Positions 11,417 through 44,697 of a stretch of 64,000 nt of DNA are shown here, piece after piece. A program made the translations under genes and the position numbers. Under the pieces are notes generated by a model. The model worked only from the letters and a program-made list of their open reading frames with translations. It made no database searches and was not told the origin of the DNA. Origin of the DNA: Akkermansia biwaensis (GTDB taxonomy: Bacteria > Verrucomicrobiota > Verrucomicrobiia > Verrucomicrobiales > Akkermansiaceae); the NCBI RefSeq assembly GCF_026072915.1, contig NZ_AP025943.1, forward strand, positions 806,001-870,000, in the 5' to 3' direction. Numbering within the stretch: the stretch's first letter is position 1; each line of letters begins with the position of its first letter.

Positions 11417-14400
11417 TCAATGCCTGCGGCGGCGCAGCAAAAGCACCCCCAGCCCCAGAAGGCCCAGTGCGGCGGAGGCGGGTTCGGGAACCGGACGCAC
11501 CAGCGTAACCACACCGTCATTCATCCAGGTGCCTTCATTGTCCAGCACGAAACCGGCATTTTTCAGAGCGGTATCGTACAGCACACAGACCGTGGAGAAA
11601 TCGGCGTTGGAAGCGCTGCCCAAAAGGTCCCTGTCACACAGGACAAAGTTGATGGTGCTCACCCGGGAGGCCGTCAACTGGTCAATCAAGTTGCCGCTGC
11701 ATTCCGTAAGCAGCAGATTCACCCCTCCGGAAAAGTCCAGGGATGCCTGTCCCGTTCCGGTGATCAGCGCATTGGTCGTCCAGGTGGAGGCATTTGTCAT
11801 GGAGAAATTGCCGTCTGCATAGCTGATGTTCAGGCCGGCAACGGAAGAGGCCGCGGAAGAAACGGTGAGGGAGGAAAATTCCCCCATCCTGATGCCGGAG
11901 TCCACAGCATGAATCAGCATGTCGGTGATGACGGCCTGCTGCCCCGCGGCGACATCCAGCAGAGACCCGGAAAACTCCGTATGGGAGAGGGTGGCTCCGG
12001 TCCTGACATCCACATTCACGCCATGGAACAGGGCGCGGTCCGCGGAACTTCCGCCCCGGACAATGCCGTACCCGCCGGAGGACCCGAACGAAGCCCCGGC
12101 CACGGAGGAGGAACCCGCCCCGGTCCGCGCCGTCACCGTCACGGAGGCATCCGCCGGGGAAGAAGAGTTCAGCGTATTGACAGAGGCCCCGATCCCTTTC
12201 AGCTCCACGGAACTGACGTAGGAAACAACCCCGGCCTTGACGTCCAGCCGGGAGTCCGCCCCTTGCAGAACAACTCCGGCCTTCGTGTTGAGGGCTTCCG
12301 CATGGGCCAGTTCCAGGGCGGCATGGTCCGTCACGCGGAAAGTGCCGTCCCAGGTATTGGCGCCTCCCAGCACCACGCGGCCATTCCGTTCGGCGTTGTC
12401 GTTCCTGATGCTGATGGTCCCGGAGGTTTTGCCGGGCTTGATTTCCCCGTTGAAGGTCATCACATGACTGTCCCCGGACGCGGTCATGGTGTCCGGATCA
12501 TATCCGGTCGTGTCCAGTACGAAGTCCGCGCTCCCGGCGTCCACCACCATTTCATAAGTGGTGCTCCAGTCGGCATCCAGCATGCCCAACGTGCCCCCGC
12601 CATTCAGAAGAATCATGTTGCCGACCCTGGCAACGCCGTTTTCCGTATAAGCCGTTCCGGACAGGGAGCCGAACCCGCTGCCCAGCCGCAGCACGCCTCC
12701 GTCATTCACCTGCAAGTCATAATCATACACGTTTTTGGAACTTCCGCCCCCTACGACCAGATTGCCGTTTTCAGAAACATTCAATTCCCCCGTCAGGAAA
12801 AGCGTCTTCGCCACCCTGATGATCCCCTCCTGAATGTCCAGGCCTGCCAGGCGGGCGTTCCCGACAGTCTGGGAGAACGTTCCCGTCTTGATCAGGCTGA
12901 TATAGCCGGAATCGTTCATCAGGCCGTTGTCGTACATATCCACATACCGCCCGAATCCCATGTCGCCATTGTAAACGCGGTCCTGCCTCTGGGTGGACAA
13001 ATGCAGCGTGACGGAGGAATCCCTTCCGGCGCTTTTCTCCGCCGTAATGGCGGATTCCTCATCCATCCCCGCCACTCCGGCCAGGCTCCATTCATGGCCC
13101 TCATCCATGGGATAGAGGTGAAGCACCGTCGTTTTCGCTCCGTTCAAGCTCAGGTCAAAGGAGGCATGGTTCCACTTGTTCTGCGCCAGGGAGGCCTGCA
13201 CCACCCCGCTGGCCCCGGCAGCCGCTCCCATGCTGACGGTTCCGGAAAAGCCGGAGCCGTCGTCCAGCCGGAAAACGCTATTGGCATGATCGGTGGAATC
13301 CTGCAAAAACAGGTTGGCGGCAGCACCGCCCTGAACCCGGGAAATCACGGCGCCGACCACCCTGTCCGTATGAGTCACCGTTACGCGGGAATCCTCAGCA
13401 ACCGTCAACAGGTTGTTCAGGGACGCCACCTGCTGGACAAATCCGGAACTGGCATAATCCAGAGCCAGGGAAGTTCCGTCAAACATCCGTATTTCCCCCG
13501 TTCCCAGCGCGGAGGAGTCACGCATGACGATCCTGCCGCCATTGACTTCCGTTCCTCCGGAATAGGTGTTCGCCGTCTCTATCAGGAGCGTTCCCTTTCC
13601 ATCCTTGGTCAGAATGGTTTTCCAGTCACTGCTTCCGTAATCGTCCGGCAGCGGGCCGTCGGCAATCATGCCTCCTCCGGCATGGGCCCGGAAAATGTAA
13701 TTGACGTCGTCCTTGACCCGGATGGATGCGGGCCGCACCGTTCCCCTGATCTGCACGACGTTATATTCCTCTCCTCCGTCCATTTCCACAGCCCCCGTCT
13801 TTCCATCTCCCTCCCCGCCGAAGGCGACGTGATAAGAATCCCTGTAAAAACCGTTCACTCCCAGGTTCTTGTCCAGCCCCTCCAGCCAGTGGTCCCGGTC
13901 CGTTCCCTGGCCCTCCGCCTCCGTATTGGCAAACCAGACATTGTCCGTAGCTGCCACGGCCTCGTCATTTTCCCCGCTTTCCCCATTGTACCAGGTGCGG
14001 GTGGGGGTATTGGTGACGGTCATCACCAGATTCATGGAATCCTCCGTAATCTTGATGATGCCGAAATAGCCGCCGCCCACGGAAATCGTACGCGTCTGGA
14101 ATCCTCCCAGGCTGCCGTTGACAAAAATGCCGTTTTCCGTGGTTACCAGGTAGTATTCCTTGTCAATCGTGCTCGTGCCGCTGAAGTTATATCCGGAAAA
14201 GCGCACCAGCACATCTCCGTCCAGATTCAGGCGGCCGGAATCCGCTATCCCCTCCACGCCCGTGATGGACAGCAGCGGATATTCCGCCTGTTCCACCGGA
14301 AGAATGTCACAGTCAAAATACAGGTAGGCCGAGTCGGAAATTGAAACGGAACCGTTCACCACGGCGGTTTCCGGCACTTGAATCACGCCGTCCCCGGCGG

Positions 14401-17400
14401 CCACTTCCCTGGAAGCGGAAGTGACGATGTGAAGAGCGTACCCGGAATTGATCGTCATGTTCCCCATCCCTTCGCCCCAGTCCTGCACAACGCCTCCGGA
14501 AGCCACGCCTTCCGTCACGCCCAGTTTCAGCGTAGTTCCTCCATGCAGGACGGCACTCGTATTTACCTTGAGATTGTTGAATCCGAGCGTTCCCTCCTGG
14601 AGGGTCAGATGGCGGACGGTGGCCGTGTGGATATATTGCGACCCTTTCCCCGCCTTGACCAGAGACAGCGTCTCCTTGCCGGCCGCAGTGACCTTCCCTG
14701 AAGAAGTGGAACCGTATGCGGAAGCCGTTCCGAAAACGCCGGCAAAATACAGTTCATCCGCCTCCCCCACATCAAGCGTCAGCGTACTGGTGGAATTGGT
14801 CAGAACGCGCAGGGTGTCCACTTCTCCGGCGATGGAATAGGCGCCGCCGTAGTATTCCGTGTCCTGCGTCTTGCCGATCAGGTCTCCCTGCAATCCCGCC
14901 AGAACGGAATCCGACCGGACCAGGAGAATGTGGTACAGGTCCATGCGCTCCTTGCCTTCAAAGGTGGTTCCGTTGTCGGAGGCATTCACCACATGCCCGC
15001 GCGTCAGGTTCACCCTGGCGTTCCTCAGAGCGTCGTCTTCTATGGAAAGCTGAACCGCTCCCGGCTTGCGGACGTCAAGGCGGTCGTTGTTGGCATTGGC
15101 ATTGGCAGAGAATTTGGCCGTGGAATACAGGATGTAGTTGTCCAGCTTCACTGTGCCGCTGAAATCGGATTTTTCCCCTTCCGGCAGGTTTTCATCGCTT
15201 ATGTGGAACATGCTCGCCCATTTGTCCGCCCCGTTGGACGTAGTGGAGGTATAGCCCATCAGCGTCAGCTCCCCATACCCGCTCAGCCTTCCTGTCAGAC
15301 TCAGGGTGCGCCAGTGGCGGGAAGTCAGGTAGTCCCACTGGTAGCCGGAGTTGTTTTCCGAGTTTTCATCCCGTTCCGCCAGGGACATCGGAGAATAGCC
15401 GATGATAATCCGGGCCGAGTCCTTGGAGGAGGCGCCTATCTGAATGTCATTGGAAATTGTCGGATTGCGGTAGGAGCTGTCCAGTTCGTTCGCGAACGGA
15501 TAATTGATGTAGAGCTGCGTCCCGTCCGCCATGCGGATGCTGCCGGAGCCAAGCGCTCCTTCACGCGCCGCAAGAATGCTGCCCTCCAGGATCTCCGTGC
15601 CTCCGGAAAACGTATTGCAGGTAGCCAGCGTCAGCATTCCCTGTCCCTCCTTGCGCAGACGGCCCGGAGTATCCGCCCCGGCATCCGCAATGCCGCCGCC
15701 TTCCGCCACCGCATGGAACCGGTAGCCCAGGCCGTCATTCGCCGCCTTGTCCACCGTTACCGTCATGCTGGAGATGCCCACCGTGCCGTCGATGTAAACG
15801 TCAAAGCTGTTGATGTCCTTTCCGGACAAGTCCTTCATGCCGAAGCAGACTTCCCGGTCTCCATTCCGAAACGTCAGGCCGCCCTCCCACGGGCTGCTGC
15901 CGGAAGAGCCGTCCGTCCATACATTGCCTTCCGTGGAGCCGGCGGCATTTCCCTGCCAGACGTAATAGGTGAATTTGTCCGTATCGAAAAAGGTTCCGGT
16001 CAGCGAGGAGGAATCCAGCCCGGTCAGCAGCATCTGCCACCTGTCGCTGCCCTGAACGTTCAGCGTAATGCCGCCGTACACGTCGATGTCCCGGTAAATC
16101 CGGTTGCCGTCCGCATCCTTCCCCTCGGCATACCGGATTATTTCCTTGTGCACTCCTTCGGAAAGGGACAGCGCATGCCCGTCAGTCACGGAAACCAGCT
16201 TCCGGGAGATTCCGGATTCCGCGTCCGGCCCGGGGGCATTCACCGTCAGCATGCTTCCATGGGAAAATTGGACGGAGGAATCCAGCTCCAGTGTTCCCTC
16301 CATGTCCATGACCAGCTCATGGCCGAACGTGATTGTTCCGGAGGATTGAATGGACATCAGGGCCAGTTCGGACGCACGGGCGCTTCCGTTCAGGGTCAGG
16401 GAAGCGCCGGAGGCGATGTCCAGCCGTGCGCCGGAAGACATGGAAAAACCGTCTTTCAGCGTGATGCCGCCGCCTTCCCCTATGCGGAGCGTTCCGTTCT
16501 GAATATCCAGGCTGCCCAGATGGGCCGCATAAAGAGTCTGGGTGCCGGTTCCCTTCTTGACCAGGTTGATGATTCCGGTTCCGTCCGCTTCAATAACCTT
16601 TCCGGTGGTGTAGCTGTCCCTGTCCGCAGTGCCCGCATGGTAGGCTCCGTCCGCCCCTGCTCCTCCGATGATTCCCTTGAATTCATGGTCTTCCGCATTA
16701 TCGACCGTCAGGGTAGCGGTCTTTCCGTTGCCGACCGTGACGCGGGAGGAGCCGCCTGCCGTGTCCCCTTCAAGTCCGGCGACGCTCAAATCCCCTTCCA
16801 GCTTCAGCACCACATAGGCGGGCGTGCCGACTCCGGACGTCAGCCAGTTGTCCAGGTCGCCCGGATTCGTTCCTCCCTGGCGGATCAGGGAGAGGTCCAC
16901 CACGGTGGAGTGCATGTCGCCCGCTGCCTGGACCTGGACGGGAGTGTTGTAATTGCCGTTGCCGTCCATTTTGGAACGGGGAGCCGCCGTTTCCAGCGTT
17001 CCGCTGAAACCGCTCATATCCGCCCCGGTCAGGTCAAAGATGGAAACGCGGGCGCGGCTGGTGTTTTCCAGCACCAGGGTTCCGGTTCCCGCAATCCTGC
17101 CCTGCAGGAAAGCCGTACGGGCCGTGGAATTGGAAAATCCCAGGTAAACCCTGGAATCCGCTCCACCTGCCAGATTGATGTCCATCCGGTAATATTTATC
17201 CTTGTTTCCGGCATCGCTCACGTTGGAACTTTCCAGGAAAATGTCTCCGGAACCCTCCATCGTTACGGCGCCGTCGTAACCCTCTTCCGGACGGGCCGCC
17301 CCACCTGCCGGCACAACGATGTCCGCCCCGGCGGCCAAAGATTCCGCGGCATTCCTCCAGGTTCCCGCCGCCGAACAGGCCGGGACCTCCTGCCGGAGGG

Positions 17401-18091
17401 GCTCCTGTTCCGGCCCGTCTGCGTCCCCCTGTTTCTCCTCATCCTGTTCCTCATCCTTCCCGGATGACGGCCTGGAACCATCCTTTCCCGCATCCGCATG
17501 ATAGGGAGGCGGAGAAGACGGGTGCAGATGGTTTCCAGTGGAAGGAACAGGCATCATCGGACGGCTGTTCCCTGAAACCAGAGCATTTGCCAGCACGCCG
17601 TGAACCAGTTTGACCGCGGCGTCATTGTCGTCCTGGAACGTATACTCCTGCCCAATATGGGAAACCGCCACTTTCCCGTTGAAAAGCTCATCGGAACGCA
17701 GTTCCCGTCTGAGATGCCATTCCTCTCCCGGTTTCAGCGGAAAAGAAGGGGAAATCCTCACCAGATGCACCGCTTCCCCGGTTCCAGAATGGCCGTCCGC
17801 AGATTCCAACACGGCGTCCACTTTTCTTCCCGTCCTGTTTTCAAAGTAAAAAGTAACGCCCTCCCATAATTTTTTCTGCCGGGCCGGGTATTGCACCAGC
17901 AGCCCTCCCTTTTCCTTCAATTCCTTGTAATCATTAACAGTCAACATATATTCACCATCCGACAGCACGGCTGCATCACGTTGACCTGCGGGAGTGTTTC
18001 CGGACAGAACCGGAGAACCTTCTGCAAAAGATTTATCAAGAAATATTGATAAAATTCCAGTGCAGCAGATAAGAAAAGCAATGTTTTTCAT
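11417..18091 (-). CDS. Giant PEP-CTERM surface protein with autotransporter-type beta-strand repeats
   Basis: A 2,224-residue exported protein. The signal peptide is MKNIAFLICCTGILSIFLDKSFA, which fixes the start at 18091 rather than the 18115 frame opening. Residues ~25-140 form a mixed domain, followed by a Pro/Asp/Glu/Gln-rich linker (~170-230). A very long Gly/Ser/Thr-rich region of predicted parallel beta-helix includes autotransporter-associated strand repeats such as NTFSGGTEILEG (near residue 830) and NTYSGGTEVNGG (near 1510). The C-terminus VPEPASAALGLLGLGVLLLRRRRH is a textbook PEP-CTERM signal: PEP motif, hydrophobic helix, Arg cluster. It is expected to be processed by an exosortase-type enzyme. 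No beta-barrel is present. An apparently invertible promoter lies 187 bp upstream and is OFF in this sequence. The ligand and role are unknown; adhesion is an inference. Confidence 0.9.
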   Translation of the reverse strand: MKNIAFLICCTGILSIFLDKSFAEGSPVLSGNTPAGQRDAAVLSDGEYMLTVNDYKELKEKGGLLVQYPARQKKLWEGVTFYFENRTGRKVDAVLESADGHSGTGEAVHLVRISPSFPLKPGEEWHLRRELRSDELFNGKVAVSHIGQEYTFQDDNDAAVKLVHGVLANALVSGNSRPMMPVPSTGNHLHPSSPPPYHADAGKDGSRPSSGKDEEQDEEKQGDADGPEQEPLRQEVPACSAAGTWRNAAESLAAGADIVVPAGGAARPEEGYDGAVTMEGSGDIFLESSNVSDAGNKDKYYRMDINLAGGADSRVYLGFSNSTARTAFLQGRIAGTGTLVLENTSRARVSIFDLTGADMSGFSGTLETAAPRSKMDGNGNYNTPVQVQAAGDMHSTVVDLSLIRQGGTNPGDLDNWLTSGVGTPAYVVLKLEGDLSVAGLEGDTAGGSSRVTVGNGKTATLTVDNAEDHEFKGIIGGAGADGAYHAGTADRDSYTTGKVIEADGTGIINLVKKGTGTQTLYAAHLGSLDIQNGTLRIGEGGGITLKDGFSMSSGARLDIASGASLTLNGSARASELALMSIQSSGTITFGHELVMDMEGTLELDSSVQFSHGSMLTVNAPGPDAESGISRKLVSVTDGHALSLSEGVHKEIIRYAEGKDADGNRIYRDIDVYGGITLNVQGSDRWQMLLTGLDSSSLTGTFFDTDKFTYYVWQGNAAGSTEGNVWTDGSSGSSPWEGGLTFRNGDREVCFGMKDLSGKDINSFDVYIDGTVGISSMTVTVDKAANDGLGYRFHAVAEGGGIADAGADTPGRLRKEGQGMLTLATCNTFSGGTEILEGSILAAREGALGSGSIRMADGTQLYINYPFANELDSSYRNPTISNDIQIGASSKDSARIIIGYSPMSLAERDENSENNSGYQWDYLTSRHWRTLSLTGRLSGYGELTLMGYTSTTSNGADKWASMFHISDENLPEGEKSDFSGTVKLDNYILYSTAKFSANANANNDRLDVRKPGAVQLSIEDDALRNARVNLTRGHVVNASDNGTTFEGKERMDLYHILLVRSDSVLAGLQGDLIGKTQDTEYYGGAYSIAGEVDTLRVLTNSTSTLTLDVGEADELYFAGVFGTASAYGSTSSGKVTAAGKETLSLVKAGKGSQYIHTATVRHLTLQEGTLGFNNLKVNTSAVLHGGTTLKLGVTEGVASGGVVQDWGEGMGNMTINSGYALHIVTSASREVAAGDGVIQVPETAVVNGSVSISDSAYLYFDCDILPVEQAEYPLLSITGVEGIADSGRLNLDGDVLVRFSGYNFSGTSTIDKEYYLVTTENGIFVNGSLGGFQTRTISVGGGYFGIIKITEDSMNLVMTVTNTPTRTWYNGESGENDEAVAATDNVWFANTEAEGQGTDRDHWLEGLDKNLGVNGFYRDSYHVAFGGEGDGKTGAVEMDGGEEYNVVQIRGTVRPASIRVKDDVNYIFRAHAGGGMIADGPLPDDYGSSDWKTILTKDGKGTLLIETANTYSGGTEVNGGRIVMRDSSALGTGEIRMFDGTSLALDYASSGFVQQVASLNNLLTVAEDSRVTVTHTDRVVGAVISRVQGGAAANLFLQDSTDHANSVFRLDDGSGFSGTVSMGAAAGASGVVQASLAQNKWNHASFDLSLNGAKTTVLHLYPMDEGHEWSLAGVAGMDEESAITAEKSAGRDSSVTLHLSTQRQDRVYNGDMGFGRYVDMYDNGLMNDSGYISLIKTGTFSQTVGNARLAGLDIQEGIIRVAKTLFLTGELNVSENGNLVVGGGSSKNVYDYDLQVNDGGVLRLGSGFGSLSGTAYTENGVARVGNMILLNGGGTLGMLDADWSTTYEMVVDAGSADFVLDTTGYDPDTMTASGDSHVMTFNGEIKPGKTSGTISIRNDNAERNGRVVLGGANTWDGTFRVTDHAALELAHAEALNTKAGVVLQGADSRLDVKAGVVSYVSSVELKGIGASVNTLNSSSPADASVTVTARTGAGSSSVAGASFGSSGGYGIVRGGSSADRALFHGVNVDVRTGATLSHTEFSGSLLDVAAGQQAVITDMLIHAVDSGIRMGEFSSLTVSSAASSVAGLNISYADGNFSMTNASTWTTNALITGTGQASLDFSGGVNLLLTECSGNLIDQLTASRVSTINFVLCDRDLLGSASNADFSTVCVLYDTALKNAGFVLDNEGTWMNDGVVTLVRPVPEPASAALGLLGLGVLLLRRRRH

Positions 18092-18277
18092 GGTTATTAG
18101 TTTATCCTTATGCAAGGCTCAGGCAAAAGTGCGCGCCATATACACCCGGCTTTCACAGCTGTCAATAAGAACGGCGATGCTCCGCCCATGCAGGAAACGA
18201 CATGCCCCGGAACCCGGGCGCATCACGGAAGCTTTTTCATTTTTCAATGAAGTCGTCATCGGCGGGGCAATGAATAC

Positions 18278-18292
18278 CGGATTTGCAATCCG
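18278..18292 (+). repeat. Switch A, proximal inverted-repeat site
   Basis: Palindrome CGGATT-TGC-AATCCG with an asymmetric 3-base centre. It is flanked by C and G, so the palindrome extends to 17 bp. It is the exact reverse complement of the site at 18592-18606. Confidence 0.85.
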
Positions 18293-18591
18293 GAAAGTCC
18301 TGGCGGCAGAAACAATCCGGCTTTCCTCCGGCTTGATTCAGTACCCATAATCCGGAAAACCAGCCCATCCGCTTCCATTCTCCGCCCGGCTCAACCCGCT
18401 ATCTCTAAACGTCTCCCGCTCCTAATAAAACTCCGAACGGCGGAAAAGAAAGGAGAATTCCTCTCCGGGCTGCTGCGGGCGTCATTGATCCGGGAAAACC
18501 GGGAAACTGCTGTTCCCGGTAGAGAGAACATCTGGATAAACGGGTGTAAATTTGACCCAAACGCTTTTTCCTCAAAATTACAGGTTGACCC

Positions 18592-18606
18592 CGGATTGCA
18601 AATCCG
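18592..18606 (+). repeat. Switch A, distal inverted-repeat site
   Basis: Palindrome CGGATT-GCA-AATCCG. TTGACC ends two bases before it, so the site occupies the would-be promoter spacer. Confidence 0.85.
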
Positions 18607-35542: not shown

Positions 35543-38500
35543 TTAGAAGTCGTAGCGGTAGCCTATGCTTCCATTCAGTGAGCTGGCTCCGTCTCGGATG
35601 TCCGCGTTGCCGTCCACAAAGACCGTTCCCCGCGTCCCCACCGGCACGCTCAGGCCCGCTCCGATTTGCACGGCCGTGCGGCCGACTTTGGCTCCGCGCA
35701 CCCTCTGCAGCAAGCCCGGGTTGCCCAGGAGCCCCACGTTGGCTTCCCCGCGCCTGTCGCCCAGGTCCTGGGCCGCGTTGACACGCAGTTCCGCCAGCGC
35801 TTCCCTCCCGAAGAGGTTGCTGCCTACAAGACCCATCCAGCGGCCGCCAAGCGCCACCGTGCCCGTCGTCAGCTCCTGCTTGTCCACGTTGAGACCCATG
35901 CTGCCGGCTCCCGTTTCACGGTAGCCGTCCATCCGCGTGGTCACCACCGAGGCGTTGAACAGGGGCTGCAGGATGCTGCTCCTGTCTTCGTTGAGGTAGA
36001 TGTCGTAGGTGAGTTCATACATCGCTCCCATCCCCCAGCCGTTGGTGTTGCCTTCCGTTCTGTAGCTGCCCGCTCCGTAGTCCACCGTACGGTTGAGTTT
36101 GGCGTCGTTCCACCCGCCCGTCAGGATGAGCGTGTGGGCCCAGCGCTTACTTTGGTAGCGCCCGAAGAGGTTGGCGTAGTAGCTGTCCAGGTGGCCATCG
36201 GCCGTGTCCGCCGCGCTGGCCGTCAGGTCGCCGTAGTTGGCCGTGAAGGCCGCCCCCAGCGTGAAGGAGTCGCTGAGGTCCACGTCCACCCCGAAGGTGC
36301 CTCCCCAGGTGGTGAGCTTGTAGCCGCTTTCATCACCTTTAGTGTCCAGCTGGGCGTAGGAGCCCGTCCCCTGCATCCACATGTGGAAGTAGGGTAGGTC
36401 TTCGTTGATGTAGGCTGGGTTGACGCCCATTTGGTTGGTGCGGTTGCGCAGCCAGCTCATCTGGTCGCGCAGCGCGTCCCTCTGGGCCATGGAGAGGCTG
36501 GTGACCGTGGAGCCGGCCGCCGCGGCCATTTTGCGCGATACCGATCCGGGGTTATTGATCAAATCGTCGTTGATGGCCGAGAGGAAGCCGGTGAGGTATT
36601 GGTCCACCTGGCCGGAACGCGCCGCTCCCCACACCAGGTTGGCTCCGGCCAGCGAGTTGGCCGTGTCCGTCAGGACCGCGTAGGGGTTGTCGGTTTGTTC
36701 TTCGGCCTTGAGCAGGATTTTGTTGCCTTCATGCACCAGGTGCGCGTTTTTGTAGTAGGTGAGGAAGAGGCCCCCTACCGTGAGCGTGTTGTCCCCCAGC
36801 GTGATGTCTCCCGTTCCGGTGAGTTCCATCAGCGAGAGTTCCATCGGGTTGCCCGGGTTCCAGGTGATGTTGATTCCCGGCAGCGTGGTGACGTGGAAGG
36901 AGGCTCCATTTTCCACCACGATGCTGCCGGAGGATTGGATGAAGCTTTCCGTCAGGTTCCCGTCGGAGTTGAGCGTGAAGGTGGTGGTGGAGTTGCTGCC
37001 AAAGGTGGCCCCGTCCACCTTCAGGGTGGTGTTAAAGGCGCTAATGGCGTTGTCGCTGGCCTGGATGGTCAGATGGCCCCGGTTTTCCAGCGCGGCGTAG
37101 GTGAGGGCCGCCCCGTCGGTGTCCGCCTTGCCCTGCAGGACCAGGTTGCCTCCGTCGATGTTGAGGTCCGTGTCCACCCCGGAGGCGCGCAGCGTCTGGG
37201 AGCCGCCGCCGGTGACGGTCAGCGTTCCTTCTCCCAGCGAGCCTTCATAGACGTGGGCGGCTCCCTGGGCCGCGTTGACCGTGAAGTTGTGCCCGTTGAG
37301 CGTGAGGGCGCCCGCTCCCGTGAGGCCGCTGACGTTTCCGTCGCTGTTGGCGGTGAGCTGGCCGTCCAGCTCCAGCAGCACTCCGTCCATGGAGCTGCTG
37401 GCTGCCAGTTCCAGCGAGGAGCCCTGGGCCAGCTTCAGCGTGCCGCTGCCGGTGATGGCGGTGTTGCCCAGGGCTGCCGTGGCCCCCGTGAGGGTGAGCG
37501 TGCCGGAAGTGCCGATGTCCAGCGTGCCTCCGTAGGTGCCAGCTGCCAGCGTTTGGGCCGTGGTGTTTCCGCCAATGCCGATGGACGCCGGGGCTCCGGC
37601 ATCCGACGAGTCAAGCCGCAGGGTTTCCACATCGGCCGTGCCGTCGAGCTGGAGGACGCCCTGCTGGGCGATGATGTCCCCGGCCAGGCTGACCGTTCCC
37701 GTCAGCGTGAGCTTGTTGGCTCCCGTCTTGACCAGGTCCGTGTTGGCCGCCGCCCCGTTGAGGCCGGTGATGTCCCCCGCAAAGCCGGTGTCCACTCCCG
37801 TGGGTCCGTCGAAGAGGTTGTTTTGCAACTCGATGCTTCCCTTGTTGTCCGCCGTGTTGGTGACGATGAGGTTGCCCGTGCCCTGCTGCCCGGCTCCGCT
37901 TCCCGGGGCCGTGAGGTTTTTGATGACCATGGTGCCGTCGGATTCCACGTAGAGGTCTTCGTTGACGATGACCGCCTGGTAGAAGTTGAGCTCCTGGTTT
38001 TTGACGGGCGCATCCGCGCTGCCCGTGCCGTCCACGGAGGCTACGTAGATGAGGTCCGTGTCTCCGGAGATGACGATGTTGCCCCCGTCCGCGTCCACGA
38101 TGCCAAAGCCCAGCGCACTGAAGAGGGGATTGGAGGTAATGTGGGTTTTGAGGGCGGCCAGCTCCGCCGTGATGGTTCCGTTGGTCAGCAGGATTTCCAG
38201 CGTGCCCCCGGCCGTTTTCATGGCGTCGGCCACGGAGGTGAGGTCTAGCGTGAGCGTGGAGCCCTCCGCAAAGGCGATGGAGCCGGAGGCCCCGTCAAAC
38301 TGGATGAGGCTGCCCGTGCCCGTGAAGGGGGCGCCGGAGAGGTTGTCCGCACTCACCGCCAGCGTATTGCCGGCGCCGCTGACTGTCCACGTGCTGCCCG
38401 CCTTGAGTCCGGTGAGCTGGGTTCCCGCGGTGGTCGTGGCCACCGTGCCCAGTTGGGAGGCGTCCAGGCCGCCCAGGGCGATGTTGCCCGAGTTGGCCAC

Positions 38501-41500
38501 GGCTCCCACATGGACGCGGTTGGAGGCATTTCCCGCGTAGGCCCCTGCCTGGCTCAGCGCCCCGGATTGGATGAGGATGTTGGTGGTGGCCGCGGCATTG
38601 TCCAGGTCCAGCGTTCCCCTGGCCAGCGTGAGCGTGCCGGTCAGGTTGTTGGCCCTGTCGCCCACCAGGAAGGTACCCGTGGTGTTGACCACCAGGCTGC
38701 CCGCTCCGCTGATGGTTCCGGCCCAGGCGGCGTTGGCCCCGCTGCCGTCTCCCAGCTGGACGGTCGAGTTCTGGGCGATGCTTATGCCGCCCGTGCTGGT
38801 GTTGGCTCCCGTCAGCACCAGCTTGTCGCTGCCCTGGACGTCGAGTTTGGCCGTGTCGATGATGTCGCCCGCATAGAGCAGGTCCTTGCCCGTACCGCTG
38901 TAGTTGACCCGGAAGGTGCCCGCCCCGCCCAGCGAGGCGGCCTGGATGAATTCCCCGCTTGCCAGCGTGGTGGCCGCCGTCCCCGCGCCAAAGGCCAGGA
39001 CGCCGGCTCCCTGGCCGGAGTGCAGCGTGCCTTCATAGCCGGTCAGATCACCCGTGAAGACCACAGTGAGTGTAGGATTGGCTCCGGCGGGCAGGCCCAG
39101 GTTGGCTCCCGCTTCACCCGTCAGGGCTCCGGAGAGAGTGAGGGTCTGGTTGGAGTTGCCGTTGATCCAGCCTCCGGCCGCGGTGACGTGGATGTCGGCC
39201 CCTACCGGGTCGCCGCCGCCCACAAAGAAGCCCCGCCCGTCAAGTTCCAGGCTGGCCCCTCCCACGGCTTGGGCGTTGGAGAAGCCCACTTCGTTCCAGT
39301 CAGCGTTGGTGCCGTTGCCCACCAGCTTGAAGGTGCCCGTGAAGCCGGTGTTGCTGCCGCTGACCTGGTAGCGCCCCCCGCCGGGGTTGGTGGGGGCTTC
39401 CTTGTCTCCCAGGATGAGGTCCCCGGCTCCGCTGATGGCTCCCGAGAGGGTGAGCACCGTGGTCCTGTTGACGGCGCGCGCTTCGTTGAATTGCAGGGCG
39501 GCCCCCTGCGCGATGGAGAGGGCCCCGCTCCACACCCGAGTGGCCTGGGAGCCCGCGGGCAGGGTGATGTTGTAGGTGAGCTGGCCTTCCGTGACGCTGA
39601 TGGCTCCCGTGTAGGTGGTGGTGTCCTGCGCTGCCGCGGTGACGGAGATGTCCAGGCTGCCGCCGCCCAGCTTGACGAGGGCCGCGTTGCCCAGTTCCTG
39701 GCTGTAGGAGGCCCAGGAGATGTCGTTGCCGTTGGTGTCGATGCGCACTTCCGTGCTGTTGGCCGCGTCAATGAGGCCGGAGATGTCCTGGGAGGCTCCC
39801 GTGCCGTACACGAAGGCGCCCCCGCCAAAGACCAGCGCGTTGGTGGCAACCAGGCCCGGAGTGTTGGCATCGGTGACGTTGAGCACCAGCCGGCCTCCGT
39901 TGAGGGTGACCGTACCGGTACCCAGCCCCTGGGCGGTGTTGAGGTTGAGGGCCCCATCGATGATGGTGGTGCCTCCGGAGAAGGTGTTGGCGCCGGTGTT
40001 TTCAATGGTCAGCTCGCCCGTGCCGCGCTTGACCAGTTCCGTGGCTCCCGTGCCGTCCACAATGGCTCCGTCCCCCGAGAAGAGGTAGGCGGTTCCTTGC
40101 GCCCCTTGCGTGTTGTTGACCGTGATGCGCGGCGAGCTGACATCCCCGCTGATGGTGACCGTGGAGGCGGTGACGCCGGTCAGGTTTTCAAAGCTGGCCG
40201 CCTTCGTGCCGTCGTAGACCACCGCCATGCTGTCCTTGTCCAGCCAGATGTCCCCGCCTCCCGCGGCCATCCAGGTGCCCGATGCTCCGCCGTTCCAGTT
40301 GAGGGCTTCTCCCAGCGCCTTGACGCGCAGGTAGAGCGTGTTGCCCGTGAGTTCCAGCGCGTAGGTGTAGTCGCCCGAGAGGCCCGAAGGGTCGAAGTGG
40401 AAGCTGTTGGCCGTCAGCGTGCCGAAGTTGTCCGCGGTGATGAGCTTGTAGTCGTTTTCCATCGTCTGGTCCACGCCGCTGATGGTCAGCGTGAGCGTGC
40501 CGCCCGCATTGAAGGAGAGCGTGCCGCCCGACTGGATGAGCGCAGCGCTTGAGGAGCCCATGCCCGTGAGGTCCAGCGTCAGGCCCGAGGCCGCAGAGAG
40601 GGTCATGCCGCCGGCCGAAGTGAGGCGCGCCCCGGCGCCCAGGGTGATGGAGTTGCCAAAGGCAACGCCATCGGCCAGACCGAAGTGGAGCTCCCCGGCG
40701 GAGACCGTCAGTGCGTTGGTGTAGCCCGTGGCCGTGGAGAGCGTGAGCTTGCCCGTGCCGCTTTTGGTGAAGGCGCCGCGTCCGTCCAGCACCGTCGCGT
40801 TGGCAATCACCGCGTCCGTCCCGTCCCCCGCGGAGATTTCGTCAAAACCCGTAATGGCCGCCGCAGCAAACATGTCAGCTCTGGTCACCCCGTTGAGGTT
40901 CAATACGCTCCTGGTCACCACGTCCCCCTGGCCCTGCCCGGAAATAAACGTCGTACCGCTAAATACGGCTTCATTCCCCTCAATCGTCACATTGGCCTGG
41001 GCCGTGGTCAGGGAAGTGCCGTTGACCTTTCGACCGCCCGCATAAATGGAGGCATTATTGAACGTTCCACCGCTGATGGAAAGGTTGGCTTCCCCTATCG
41101 TCAATGCGGAACTGGTGTTGTTGCGTTCCACATAAGTACCCAGGGATATTTGCGCTCCATCGAATGTACCGCCTGTAATCGTAATATTGGTGGAACCAAT
41201 ATTTCCGGTGAGGGCAGCGGTAGCGGCTCCATTAATGTAGGAGCCGCCCCAGATCTGGCCTGTGTACGTGCCGGATTTGAAAGTCAGGTTGGTTGAACCG
41301 GTAATATTGAGTGTGGACGCTCCCGTCTCCACCCAGGTACCCCCGGCAATCATGGCCGCTACGGAGCCATTGCCCATATCCAGCGTCATGTTGGTAGAAG
41401 TCAAATTATAGGTGGACGAGTTGACCATGGCACCTGCAAACAGCTTCTTCCCTTCCGCAAACGTGCCACCTGAAATAGTAGTGGTAGCCCCCTGCGCAAA

Positions 41501-42457
41501 TACGTTTTCATTAAAGATGCCTCCGCTGATATCCAGGAAAACCGAAGCATTCTGCTTGACGGAAATTTCATTGCCTTTTCCCAACCCCAATACATTGGCA
41601 TTAAACGTGCCTCCACTGATGCTCAGTCTTCCTACATAATTTTTCCCTTCTTCCGTATTGCCGTAATTTACCTTTCCCATGCCCAGCAGGGAAACATTGC
41701 TGCCGAACGTTCCCCCTGTAACGGTCAGGTTGATGTCGCCCAGAATGGTAGAGGCATCCACATAGCCGCGAGCGGACCCGGCTGAAACAGTCCCGGTAAA
41801 GGCCCCTCCATTAATGGTGAAATTGACGTCTCCAGTATGCTGGAAACCTTCCAAGCCTAAAGCGAAAGAGATAATTTCAGAAGGAGCGCCAGTTGTCCAG
41901 CCCGTCCACTCTCCCCCATTGATGGTAGCGGTGAGAGTACCTGTTGTAGCAAACCTGACTCCGGCACCTCCTGCATTTCCATCCCCAAGCAAAGTCATTC
42001 CCGTCAGAGAACCTGCGTTTTCATCTACATTCAGGGTAACATCGGCCGTTACCGTACGCAGAGAGTTGGCCCAAAACATGAAATGAAATCCTGAAGTCAG
42101 GGAAGTATCCGCACCTATATTGATGGTGAATTTGTTGTCTCCATTGAGCGTAGTTTCTGCAGCATCCCCCACAATGTTCCACAACTGGACGCTGGCATAT
42201 GTTCCTCCCTCCAGAGTCAGCGTGCGATCATATCCCCCTTCATAAGTACCGGCTGCCGTGATGTCCGTCATATAAATGGTACCCGGAGAATCAGTCTGCT
42301 CCGAAGAAGAACCGCCTGGATTAGTGATCGTATATTGTTCATTACCAAATGTTATCGTCGTTTCTCCGTTATCATCCAGGGTATAGGCAGACCATGCAGG
42401 AGAAATGAAGCAGGCAAGGAGAGCGGATAAAAGAGACAGGGGCAGATGTGGTCGCAT
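35543..42457 (-). CDS. Giant type V autotransporter with beta-helix passenger
   Basis: A 2,304-residue autotransporter. The signal peptide MRPHLPLSLLSALLACFISP (cleavage near AWSA) leads the passenger. Residues ~170-560 hold many ISGGTF/ITGGTF-type repeats (SGGTFNANV, SGGIFNENV, SGGTFAEGK, TGGTFDGAQ, SGGTFNNAS), followed by Gly/Thr-rich beta-helix with a strand repeat such as NTFSGGTTIIDG near 820. The C-terminal ~280 residues (from about 2,010) form a beta-barrel translocator: alternating aromatic strands and a final GSIGYRYDF ending in Phe. It should be secreted through its own barrel and displayed on the surface. Ligand unknown. A candidate invertible promoter 57 bp upstream is OFF here, and the gene shares this switch design with the PEP-CTERM gene at 11417-18091. 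Confidence 0.93.
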   Translation of the reverse strand: MRPHLPLSLLSALLACFISPAWSAYTLDDNGETTITFGNEQYTITNPGGSSSEQTDSPGTIYMTDITAAGTYEGGYDRTLTLEGGTYASVQLWNIVGDAAETTLNGDNKFTINIGADTSLTSGFHFMFWANSLRTVTADVTLNVDENAGSLTGMTLLGDGNAGGAGVRFATTGTLTATINGGEWTGWTTGAPSEIISFALGLEGFQHTGDVNFTINGGAFTGTVSAGSARGYVDASTILGDINLTVTGGTFGSNVSLLGMGKVNYGNTEEGKNYVGRLSISGGTFNANVLGLGKGNEISVKQNASVFLDISGGIFNENVFAQGATTTISGGTFAEGKKLFAGAMVNSSTYNLTSTNMTLDMGNGSVAAMIAGGTWVETGASTLNITGSTNLTFKSGTYTGQIWGGSYINGAATAALTGNIGSTNITITGGTFDGAQISLGTYVERNNTSSALTIGEANLSISGGTFNNASIYAGGRKVNGTSLTTAQANVTIEGNEAVFSGTTFISGQGQGDVVTRSVLNLNGVTRADMFAAAAITGFDEISAGDGTDAVIANATVLDGRGAFTKSGTGKLTLSTATGYTNALTVSAGELHFGLADGVAFGNSITLGAGARLTSAGGMTLSAASGLTLDLTGMGSSSAALIQSGGTLSFNAGGTLTLTISGVDQTMENDYKLITADNFGTLTANSFHFDPSGLSGDYTYALELTGNTLYLRVKALGEALNWNGGASGTWMAAGGGDIWLDKDSMAVVYDGTKAASFENLTGVTASTVTISGDVSSPRITVNNTQGAQGTAYLFSGDGAIVDGTGATELVKRGTGELTIENTGANTFSGGTTIIDGALNLNTAQGLGTGTVTLNGGRLVLNVTDANTPGLVATNALVFGGGAFVYGTGASQDISGLIDAANSTEVRIDTNGNDISWASYSQELGNAALVKLGGGSLDISVTAAAQDTTTYTGAISVTEGQLTYNITLPAGSQATRVWSGALSIAQGAALQFNEARAVNRTTVLTLSGAISGAGDLILGDKEAPTNPGGGRYQVSGSNTGFTGTFKLVGNGTNADWNEVGFSNAQAVGGASLELDGRGFFVGGGDPVGADIHVTAAGGWINGNSNQTLTLSGALTGEAGANLGLPAGANPTLTVVFTGDLTGYEGTLHSGQGAGVLAFGAGTAATTLASGEFIQAASLGGAGTFRVNYSGTGKDLLYAGDIIDTAKLDVQGSDKLVLTGANTSTGGISIAQNSTVQLGDGSGANAAWAGTISGAGSLVVNTTGTFLVGDRANNLTGTLTLARGTLDLDNAAATTNILIQSGALSQAGAYAGNASNRVHVGAVANSGNIALGGLDASQLGTVATTTAGTQLTGLKAGSTWTVSGAGNTLAVSADNLSGAPFTGTGSLIQFDGASGSIAFAEGSTLTLDLTSVADAMKTAGGTLEILLTNGTITAELAALKTHITSNPLFSALGFGIVDADGGNIVISGDTDLIYVASVDGTGSADAPVKNQELNFYQAVIVNEDLYVESDGTMVIKNLTAPGSGAGQQGTGNLIVTNTADNKGSIELQNNLFDGPTGVDTGFAGDITGLNGAAANTDLVKTGANKLTLTGTVSLAGDIIAQQGVLQLDGTADVETLRLDSSDAGAPASIGIGGNTTAQTLAAGTYGGTLDIGTSGTLTLTGATAALGNTAITGSGTLKLAQGSSLELAASSSMDGVLLELDGQLTANSDGNVSGLTGAGALTLNGHNFTVNAAQGAAHVYEGSLGEGTLTVTGGGSQTLRASGVDTDLNIDGGNLVLQGKADTDGAALTYAALENRGHLTIQASDNAISAFNTTLKVDGATFGSNSTTTFTLNSDGNLTESFIQSSGSIVVENGASFHVTTLPGINITWNPGNPMELSLMELTGTGDITLGDNTLTVGGLFLTYYKNAHLVHEGNKILLKAEEQTDNPYAVLTDTANSLAGANLVWGAARSGQVDQYLTGFLSAINDDLINNPGSVSRKMAAAAGSTVTSLSMAQRDALRDQMSWLRNRTNQMGVNPAYINEDLPYFHMWMQGTGSYAQLDTKGDESGYKLTTWGGTFGVDVDLSDSFTLGAAFTANYGDLTASAADTADGHLDSYYANLFGRYQSKRWAHTLILTGGWNDAKLNRTVDYGAGSYRTEGNTNGWGMGAMYELTYDIYLNEDRSSILQPLFNASVVTTRMDGYRETGAGSMGLNVDKQELTTGTVALGGRWMGLVGSNLFGREALAELRVNAAQDLGDRRGEANVGLLGNPGLLQRVRGAKVGRTAVQIGAGLSVPVGTRGTVFVDGNADIRDGASSLNGSIGYRYDF

Positions 42458-42513
42458 AATACAGAACCTATTGATAATTAATAATTATAAAATATATTAC
42501 CTAATACTATTAC

Positions 42514-42528
42514 CGGATTAGAAATCCG
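42514..42528 (+). repeat. Switch B, proximal inverted-repeat site
   Basis: Palindrome CGGATT-AGA-AATCCG with an asymmetric centre; exact reverse complement of 42685-42699. The centre differs from that of switch A. Confidence 0.87.
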
Positions 42529-42684
42529 TGCAATAATTACGCAATAATGTTAGATAGAATATAAAATATTAAGAATGATATTGTTCAAAAATAATTATCT
42601 TATGACCTAATATGTTTTGCATTTTCTATATCCACCCTTTCTGATTTTGCTAAAAGCCTTGGCCTCAAAAATTGTCATTGACTC

Positions 42685-42699
42685 CGGATTTCTAATCCG
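42685..42699 (+). repeat. Switch B, distal inverted-repeat site
   Basis: Palindrome CGGATT-TCT-AATCCG. TTGACT ends two bases before it, so the site fills the promoter spacer as at switch A. Confidence 0.87.
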
Positions 42700-42831: not shown

Positions 42832-42909
42832 GGAGCGGTAGCTCAGTTCGGTTAGAGCGCCAGCCTGTCACGCTGGAGGTCGCGGGTTCGAGCCCCGTCC
42901 GCTTCGCCA
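42832..42909 (+). tRNA. tRNA-Asp (anticodon GTC), CCA encoded
   Basis: A complete 78-nt cloverleaf. The acceptor stem GGAGCGG pairs with CCGCTTC, with discriminator G and encoded CCA. The D stem is GCTC/GAGC with an enlarged loop. The anticodon stem CCAGC/GCTGG carries loop CTGTCAC with anticodon GTC. The T arm is GCGGG-TTCGAGC-CCCGT (one G-U pair). Promoter and terminator flank it. Confidence 0.97.
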
Positions 42910-43116: not shown

Positions 43117-44697
43117 ATGAGCACACTTTCGGACCGCCTCTTTGAGGAAATCCTTCAAGCCCGCCAACGGGTTTATGCCGTAGGCGAACCTACTCCCCTC
43201 CAGAAATTGAATCTGCCGGCCATTCATGCCCCGGTATATGCCAAACGGGAGGACCTGGGGCCAATCCGCGCCTACAAATGGCGCGGAGCATACAATTGCA
43301 TGGCGGCCCTGAGCCAGGAAGCCAGGGACAAGGGAATCGTGGCGGCATCCGCGGGCAACCATGCACAGGGGGTAGCCCTGGCGGCAAGCGTGCTGAATTG
43401 CCGCGCCACCATTTTCATGCCGCGCTCCACCCCGGAAGTGAAGCAAACGGAAGTGCGCCGCCACGGCGGCAGCCATGTGGAAATCATCCTTCACGGCGAC
43501 TGCTATGACGAGACCGCGGACGCGGCCCACGAATACGCGGAAACGCACGGGAGCACCTTTGTCCACCCCTATGACGACCTGGTCACGATGGGCGGACAGG
43601 GAACGCTGGCGGATGAAGTAGTGATGAGCGGGGAAGGCCCCTTTGACCGCGCCTACGTGGCCATCGGCGGCGGCGGCCTGGCCGCATCCGTGGCCTGCTG
43701 GCTGAAGAAGTTCTGGCCGGATATCAAGGTGGTGGGCGTGGAGGGGGTGGACCAGGCTTCCATGAAGACTTCCATGGAACAGGGGCACCGCGTGAATCTG
43801 GATTACGTGGACGTGTTCTGCGACGGCACCGCCGTACATATTCCCGGGGAATATACCTATCCATTGTGCCGGGATTTGATCGACGAGTTCGTCACCGTTA
43901 CCAACAATGAAGTCTGCCAGGCCATCCGGGCCATGTGGGAATCTTCCCGCGTTGTTCCGGAACCGTCCGGAGCCATGAGCCTGGCAGGGTTCATGAAACA
44001 ATGGAACGAGGGACAGGTCAGGCCGGACGAAAAGAGCTTTGTCGTCATTTCCGGAGCCAACATGGATTTCACCCAGCTCACCCAGATCGCCCGCCAGGCG
44101 GGAATCGGCAACCATGAGACGCGCTACCTGCGCATCTCCATGGCCTCCAAACGCGGCCAGGTGCTCAAGTACCTGCGCCACATGCCCCCGGCCACCACGC
44201 TGGTGGACGTGCAGTACGGCAAGACGGAGGGAGACACGCAGTACCCCGTGTTCGGAATCGCCGCTTCCGACGAAGATCTGGACACCATCCGCACCACCCT
44301 GAAAAAGAAGGGCATCGAGTTCGAAGACATCAGCGAAGACGACGACGTGCGCTTCCGCATGATCCATTATCAGGCGGAGTTGTGCGAACACCCCCTGTTC
44401 GTCCATATCGAGTTTCCCGAACGCGCCGGAGCCTTCCTGGATTTCATGGAACGCATCGCTGATCTCGCATCCCTGTGCTACTTTAATTACACTTACACGG
44501 GGGAACGCGTAGGCCGCGCGCTGGTAGGCATGGAATTCGAATCCGCAGAAGACCGGGAAACCATCCGGAAGCGCATGGCCGGATTCACCCGGAACATCAT
44601 CCGCTCCATCCGGGAAATTTCTCCGGAAGCCTTCCACCGGATCATGGGAAAGGGGGCCCTGAGCATCGGCAGCCAAAAACGGGAAACCGGCGACTAG
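43117..44697 (+). CDS. ilvA: Threonine ammonia-lyase, biosynthetic
   Basis: A 526-residue PLP enzyme that deaminates threonine to 2-oxobutanoate, the first step of isoleucine synthesis. Lys54 in AYKWRGAYN binds PLP. ASAGNHAQG is the substrate and cofactor loop, and GGGGLAASV the phosphate-binding glycine loop. The C-terminal ~200 residues form two ACT-like regulatory domains (starting near ETRYLRISM), expected to give feedback control by isoleucine. The size matches E. coli IlvA (514). The ATG at 43117 is used; the longer frame to 42994 adds nothing family-like. maf follows 50 bp downstream. Confidence 0.94.
   Translation: MSTLSDRLFEEILQARQRVYAVGEPTPLQKLNLPAIHAPVYAKREDLGPIRAYKWRGAYNCMAALSQEARDKGIVAASAGNHAQGVALAASVLNCRATIFMPRSTPEVKQTEVRRHGGSHVEIILHGDCYDETADAAHEYAETHGSTFVHPYDDLVTMGGQGTLADEVVMSGEGPFDRAYVAIGGGGLAASVACWLKKFWPDIKVVGVEGVDQASMKTSMEQGHRVNLDYVDVFCDGTAVHIPGEYTYPLCRDLIDEFVTVTNNEVCQAIRAMWESSRVVPEPSGAMSLAGFMKQWNEGQVRPDEKSFVVISGANMDFTQLTQIARQAGIGNHETRYLRISMASKRGQVLKYLRHMPPATTLVDVQYGKTEGDTQYPVFGIAASDEDLDTIRTTLKKKGIEFEDISEDDDVRFRMIHYQAELCEHPLFVHIEFPERAGAFLDFMERIADLASLCYFNYTYTGERVGRALVGMEFESAEDRETIRKRMAGFTRNIIRSIREISPEAFHRIMGKGALSIGSQKRETGD

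Follow-up and report, generated by a model that had tools for sequence, protein, structure and literature searches.

A probable phase-variation switch with an apparently split promoter in front of a giant autotransporter gene of Akkermansia biwaensis

The DNA analyzed here (the window) is a stretch of 64,000 nt from Akkermansia biwaensis (NZ_AP025943.1, positions 806,001-870,000), the genome of which is referred to below as G000. The window contains a gene on the minus strand (35543-42457) for a giant autotransporter of 2304 amino acids with a signal-peptide-like start, a PATR repeat, and a C-terminal beta-domain. The beta-domain (PF03797) was detected with an E value of 2.4e-42 in a scan of the C-terminal piece of the protein, and was not listed in the scan of the whole protein. 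In front of this gene, which is presumably the regulated one, are two perfect 15-bp inverted repeats (motif CGGATTNNNAATCCG). The proximal site is at 42514-42528 (CGGATTAGAAATCCG; CGGATT-AGA-AATCCG) and the distal site is at 42685-42699 (CGGATTTCTAATCCG; CGGATT-TCT-AATCCG), giving a site-to-site spacing of 171 bp. The 156-bp segment between them (42529-42684) is found in both orientations among orthologous loci. Beyond the distal site are tRNA-Asp(gtc) (42832-42909, plus strand), the anchor of the locus across species, and a gene at 43117-44697 that we take to be ilvA-like and that, together with the tRNA, keeps the locus recognizable from one species to another.

A preliminary description of this DNA had proposed that the two sites, with their mirrored centers (AGA and TCT), form a true inverted repeat, and we found that they are exact reverse complements, letter for letter. 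The hexamer TTGACT was located where that description had placed it, just inside the distal site and directed away from the autotransporter gene (42678-42683, plus strand, 1 bp from the site). On its 5' side, and also within the segment, is an A/T tract, AAAAATT (42667-42673, plus strand), that may function like an UP element. On the minus strand, a single G separates the proximal site from a downstream TAATAG (42507-42512), which lies outside the segment. The flipped form would read TTGACT-17-TAATAG toward the gene, with exactly the 17-bp spacing that had been predicted, and the proximal site would make up most of the promoter spacer. In the present orientation, the gene-facing -35 position reads TATTGC (42530-42535, minus strand), also as described. 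TAATAG matches TATAAT at three of six positions and is a weak prediction for the -10 of the autotransporter promoter. We infer that the present orientation is OFF. The exact motif occurred four times in the window. When up to two mismatches were allowed there were 12 matches, compared to 3.8 expected, and none of 100 shuffled sequences reached 12 (maximum of 11).

It had also been predicted that homologous loci in other Akkermansia genomes would be found in both orientations, and this is what we observed. A DNA search of 76 genomes of the genus gave matches in 75, mostly at the tRNA alone. Both sites were present in 11 of 30 loci that were fetched, and the other 19 had no site. Both sites were present in four of 67 named loci and neither in the remaining 63; the four (L047-L050) duplicate contigs already among the 11 (G044, G010, G006, and G008) and were counted once. 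TTGACT was beside the gene in eight of the 11 genomes (G003, G004, G005, G006, G007, G008, G010, and G012) and at the distal end in three (the window genome, G009, and G044). G046 is a possible twelfth case, outside the 11-genome count, in which the places of the matches resemble those of the eight gene-side genomes.

One close pair of genomes allowed the ends of the inversion to be placed. Between G009 and G008, the flanks (110-125 bp) were 94% (left) and 99% (right) identical, and the segment was 51% identical in direct alignment and 98% identical when flipped. We take this comparison of sequences to be decisive that the segment was flipped exactly between the two sites. The window's own segment has diverged: even when flipped, it was 56-63% identical to those of the eight genomes predicted to be ON, compared to 44-50% in direct alignment, and the flipped alignment was the better one in all eight. 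TTGACT was present in all 11 aligned orthologues, and no other part of the segment was as well conserved as the -35 block when the 11 were aligned. The center of the left site at this locus varies between species (AGA, TGA, or TAA), and the two sites are exact inverses of each other in all 11 genomes. All 11 genomes have a TA one base beyond the gene-side site, compared to none of 11 at the same offset on the tRNA side, where the window has a TA one base nearer than the tested offset. The MAFFT alignment of the flanks placed a 10-nt gap in the window sequence at the gene-side position, leaving TAATAG unpaired with the TAATTA of the other genomes.

There are about three dozen such switches in the window genome. 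The CGGATT motif occurred 56 times in G000; a reversed-pattern control had no match, and equal base frequencies would give 0.19. We read 54 of the 56 sites in their surrounding stretches and found 34 inverted pairs with spacings of 144-317 bp; three exact sites had no partner (two or fewer mismatches) within 400 bp. When partners were sought by their arms alone, with any center and up to two arm mismatches, there were 35 pairs, one site being doubled, and the centers were complementary in all 35. The 22 mismatches in the partner arms were all at arm positions 1-4, with none at the two innermost positions (TT/AA), a distribution that an even spread of mismatches would give with a probability of (4/6)^22, or ~1e-4. 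The complementary centers and the absence of mismatches at the innermost arm positions point to strand exchange over a 7-bp core, TTNNNAA, which would suit a tyrosine recombinase. The crossover region of tyrosine recombinases is 6-8 bp and is identical in both sites, and the G000 pairs fit this.

The spacing of the sites in the pairs of G000 and G009 peaked sharply at 164-172 bp, with few of the interiors being homologous, and a second class had spacings of ~240-344 bp. The peak suggests that the geometry of the recombination complex is constrained. Sites for IHF were considered as a general feature of the segments and rejected: they were found in five of 33 interiors in G000 (shuffles 0.95, maximum 3), but in only three of 41 in G009 (shuffles 1.0, maximum 5). 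Tandem doubled sites, which would permit two segment lengths, were found at L134 (G000 C1:1122604; 21 bp apart) and at L251 (G009 C1:1359257; 13 bp apart). At L134, the genes on either side of the element are divergent and have similar starts, and one of the two is FrhB-like.

Invertons of this kind have been described before in Akkermansia. The motif CGGATT..AATCCG is attributed to Jiang et al. 2019 in the available part of PMC13343947, and the repeat motif of inverton group 138, in the available part of PMC11892184, closely resembles the published Akkermansia motif. The same part of PMC11892184 reports 32 group 138 invertons in strain BAA-835, PEP-CTERM proteins near invertons of the group, and one group 138 inverton, near two autotransporter-domain genes, that changes orientation across mouse generations. 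For the cps1 capsule inverton of A. muciniphila, the available part of PMC13343947 reports both orientations in reads, in culture, in mice, and in human stool, and an orientation that tracks the ON/OFF state of the capsule. That part gives no promoter anatomy for the cps1 inverton, and the words recombinase, integrase, and Xer are absent from the main text.

The element in front of the autotransporter gene shares its inverted-repeat motif and genus with these invertons, which are found beside similar types of genes (autotransporters, PEP-CTERM proteins, and capsule genes), and differs in being in another Akkermansia genome; cps1 has the same motif and controls capsule genes, whereas the gene here is for an autotransporter. 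The element has CGGATT..AATCCG repeats, both orientations (between genomes), and a promoter-like TTGACT with an A/T tract beside a surface gene. Judging from these sequences, we regard the element at 42514-42699 as a genuine invertible switch that belongs to a class already known in Akkermansia. The copy of the window locus in G004 is at 691862-692033, and the published longitudinal inverton at 2092093 falls elsewhere; no exact site was found in G004 at 2091000-2093300. The published inverton thus failed to match the coordinates of G004, and the two coordinate frames probably differ. The class of inverton is already known, and the switch at this locus is, as far as we checked, new. Our additions are the split layout of the promoter and a candidate for the recombinase, of the tyrosine type.

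The layout of the promoter elements at the window locus recurs at other pairs of sites. In G000, 33 of 34 pairs had a TTG that could start a -35 hexamer at a gap of 0-2 bp (mostly 1) from one inner edge, as did 41 of 43 pairs in G009; the two genomes share orthologous switches and are not independent. TTGA at a gap of 1 was present at 22 edges in G000 and 32 in G009, and at no more than three edges for each of the other gaps between 0 and 21. The consensus 5' of the site was T.AaaatTtt...TTGactc, showing an A/T tract together with the -35; the majority consensus of the tract was AaaatT in the 33 pairs of G000 and the 41 pairs of G009. The opposite inner edge was little conserved (≤0.34 bits per position).

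The -10 side of the layout was assessed from the bases just outside the sites. Using a fixed signal-peptide rule to assign the gene side in G000, we found a TA one base beyond the outer edge of the site, where a -10 with a 17-bp spacer would start, in 15 of 27 pairs on the gene side and in five of 27 on the other (p = 0.01). In G009 the corresponding numbers were 17 and five of 30 (p = 0.0028). The rule left the gene side unassigned in seven of 34 pairs in G000 and 13 of 43 in G009, and some of the assigned sides are doubtful. When gene sides in G000 were called by eye, with 10 pairs left out, TA was present in 14 of 24 on the gene side and three of 24 on the other, and a -10 score separated the two sides (permutation p = 5e-5). 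Genome-wide, the enrichment was clear for TA alone; the last T of the -10 was not clearly enriched.

From these comparisons, the promoter spacer and the crossover core appear to be one and the same, with inversion moving the -35 and the A/T tract onto a fixed -10. The preliminary description had placed the recombination site inside the promoter spacer at this one locus, with the -35 being swapped over the fixed -10. That layout recurs in pairs of both genomes, and the idea of the recombination site as promoter spacer is borne out as a general trend across the pairs. Applied to the genomes as assembled, the orientation rule gave 10 ON, 16 OFF, and one unclear in G000, and 10 ON, 18 OFF, and two unclear in G009.

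In the invertible promoters of E. coli fimS and of Bacteroides capsule genes, the whole promoter is within the segment. As proposed for the Akkermansia element, a surface structure is switched in these systems when a segment between short inverted repeats is flipped, whereas in the Akkermansia element the promoter appears to be split by the recombination site. The split layout was not found in the available parts of PMC11892184 and PMC13343947, and a third paper, PMC8278651, mentions the subject in a reference only. A whole promoter embedded in the segment, with the -10 outside it being accidental, is the usual model for invertons, and inverton-embedded promoters are described in the available part of PMC11892184. 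The window segment has, in its present orientation, a gene-facing promoter-like match of 9/12 (42587-42558), and there were four promoter-like matches in the 521 bp scanned, compared to 1.5 ± 1.1 in shuffled sequences. Given this internal match, the present orientation might not be fully off. However, conservation within the segments is limited to the -35 edge, TTGA peaks exactly 1 bp from the site so that a spacer of normal length must cross the site, and the enrichment of TA is outside the site on the gene side. We consider it unlikely that the whole promoter is embedded in the segment, and favor a promoter divided between the segment and the fixed flank.

The complement of recombinases in G000 was examined for an enzyme that could act at these sites. 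Hin, Gin, and Mpi are serine-invertase systems, and there were no matches to the serine recombinase domain (PF00239) in G000. There were 10 PF00589 stretches in nine G000 proteins: two Xer-like proteins, a third and patchy Xer-like protein (L114), L116 and L117, and a family of four with 33-50% mutual identity that includes L120 (C1:110164-111252), an intact open frame. Orthologues of L120 were found in 12 of the 76 genomes (89-100% identity, E ≤4.7e-224), each of which has 36-84 sites. The best match in the other 64 genomes had an E value of 7e-99 or weaker, and the top identity among the remaining matches listed was 51%. PF00239 was absent from nine of the 12 genomes with L120, and was found once in G009, once in G044, and three times in G046. 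PF00589 was scanned in nine of the 12, and L120 (matched by place) was the sole non-Xer member shared by all nine. G009, with 74 sites, has just four PF00589 proteins: two Xer-like proteins, a 394-aa frame, and L120. Residues R206, K233, R296, H319, and Y329, presumably the catalytic set, are conserved in L120 and its paralogues, with D293 at the place of the first His. The sole solved relative found by sequence was XerD (1a0p, E = 0.0035, cut-off of 0.1). G001 (22 sites, 6% contamination) and G057 (11 sites) are without L120, and the 12 genomes with L120 may simply be one clade. We consider L120 a candidate for the recombinase of the CGGATT switches, with about an even chance of being the enzyme.

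Other proteins were also considered. A XerD-like protein beside the inverton at 2811627 is still a rival to L120; its presence does not discriminate because Xer-like matches were found in all 76 genomes. L114 (319 aa) was rejected: close copies (87-100%) were found in only six of the 76 genomes, and were absent from the site-rich genomes G004, G005, G009, G010, G012, and G044. L119 adjoins an inverton but was rejected as a general invertase, with close copies (76-100%) in G000, G004, and G005 only. The inverton in question (L154, G000 C1:3005706-3006951) is directly upstream of the L119 gene, and this tyrosine recombinase gene may itself be phase-variable. The L118-L121 recombinase family has as many as 16 matches in genomes that are poor in sites (e.g., G013 and G029, with one CGGATT site), and these relatives may serve other inversion motifs. 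G045, which has 88 CGGATT sites and no L120, was rejected as a counter-example: the sites listed, a part of the 88, share one center, and most are paired at ~180 bp, flanking one dispersed repeat. This repeat is perhaps a mobile use of the CGGATT site.

The element might have flipped during evolution and now be frozen in the window strain, through loss of the recombinase or drift of the sites. That strain is represented by one assembly, and the three exact sites in its genome without a recognizable partner within 400 bp would fit such decay. Against this, both sites of the window element are perfect, their centers match, and the open frame of L120, the candidate recombinase, is intact; we think it quite improbable that the element is frozen. 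The dyads might instead be binding sites for a dimeric regulator or terminator hairpins, with no inversion, each site being a 6-3-6 palindrome and the distal copy with its T-run being called terminator-like on the plus strand (one found; shuffles 0.4), but this is very hard to reconcile with the exact flip between G009 and G008, the complementary centers in 35 of 35 pairs, which a regulator would not need, and the flipping of the cps1 copy reported in the available part of PMC13343947.

Our preferred interpretation, which we hold to be very probable, is that the element is a phase-variation switch in which inversion swaps the -35 half of a promoter over a fixed -10 to turn the autotransporter ON or OFF; transcription, the ON/OFF effect, and the recombinase are parts that we infer from sequence. 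The 156-bp segment would be inverted through strand exchange at the two 15-bp sites, probably within the 7-bp core TTNNNAA, by a site-specific recombinase that is most likely of the tyrosine type and encoded on the chromosome. The upstream half of the promoter (the A/T tract and TTGACT) would be carried at one end only of the segment, and the downstream half (the -10) would remain outside, beside the gene. In the ON state, TTGACT and the fixed -10 would be 17 bp apart, the spacer between them being the recombination site, and transcription of the autotransporter would follow. In the OFF state, as in the assembly, the -35 would face the tRNA-Asp side and the gene would be left without a -35.

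A second inverton in the window (18278-18606; sites at 18278-18292 and 18592-18606) has the same layout with a spacing of 314 bp and TTGACC beside the right-hand (distal) site. It is upstream of a gene to its left for a PATR/PEP-CTERM protein of 2232 amino acids (11417-18115, minus strand), and by the same rule is predicted to be OFF. Ten secreted-protein genes beside switches were scanned, and nine encode a PEP-CTERM motif (four at or over the Pfam cut-off and five below it), one of the nine also having a sub-threshold Tox-HDC match. PEP-CTERM proteins under these switches agree with the report for group 138 in the available part of PMC11892184. Nine further switch genes include those for a PEP-CTERM protein, a sugar transferase, a family-2 glycosyltransferase, an FrhB-like protein, and an ankyrin-repeat protein; one is PrmA-like and may be the wrong neighbor, and one had no match.

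These observations add the giant autotransporter to the surface features that would be switchable in Akkermansia. The promoter rule predicts the ON orientation of each switch from its sequence alone (34 and 43 pairs in two genomes). A broader and more tentative proposal, to which we give somewhat less than even credence, is that the CGGATT invertons of muciniphila-like Akkermansia are, with few or no exceptions, half-promoter swappers with the 17-bp spacer as crossover core, that the recombinase and RNA polymerase would compete for the same ~35 bp, that an L120 orthologue would serve all of them, and that the 3-bp center would limit which sites can be partners. If the L120 candidate is correct, one deletion would lock the whole set of switches, and the role of surface phase variation in the colonization of mucus would become testable.
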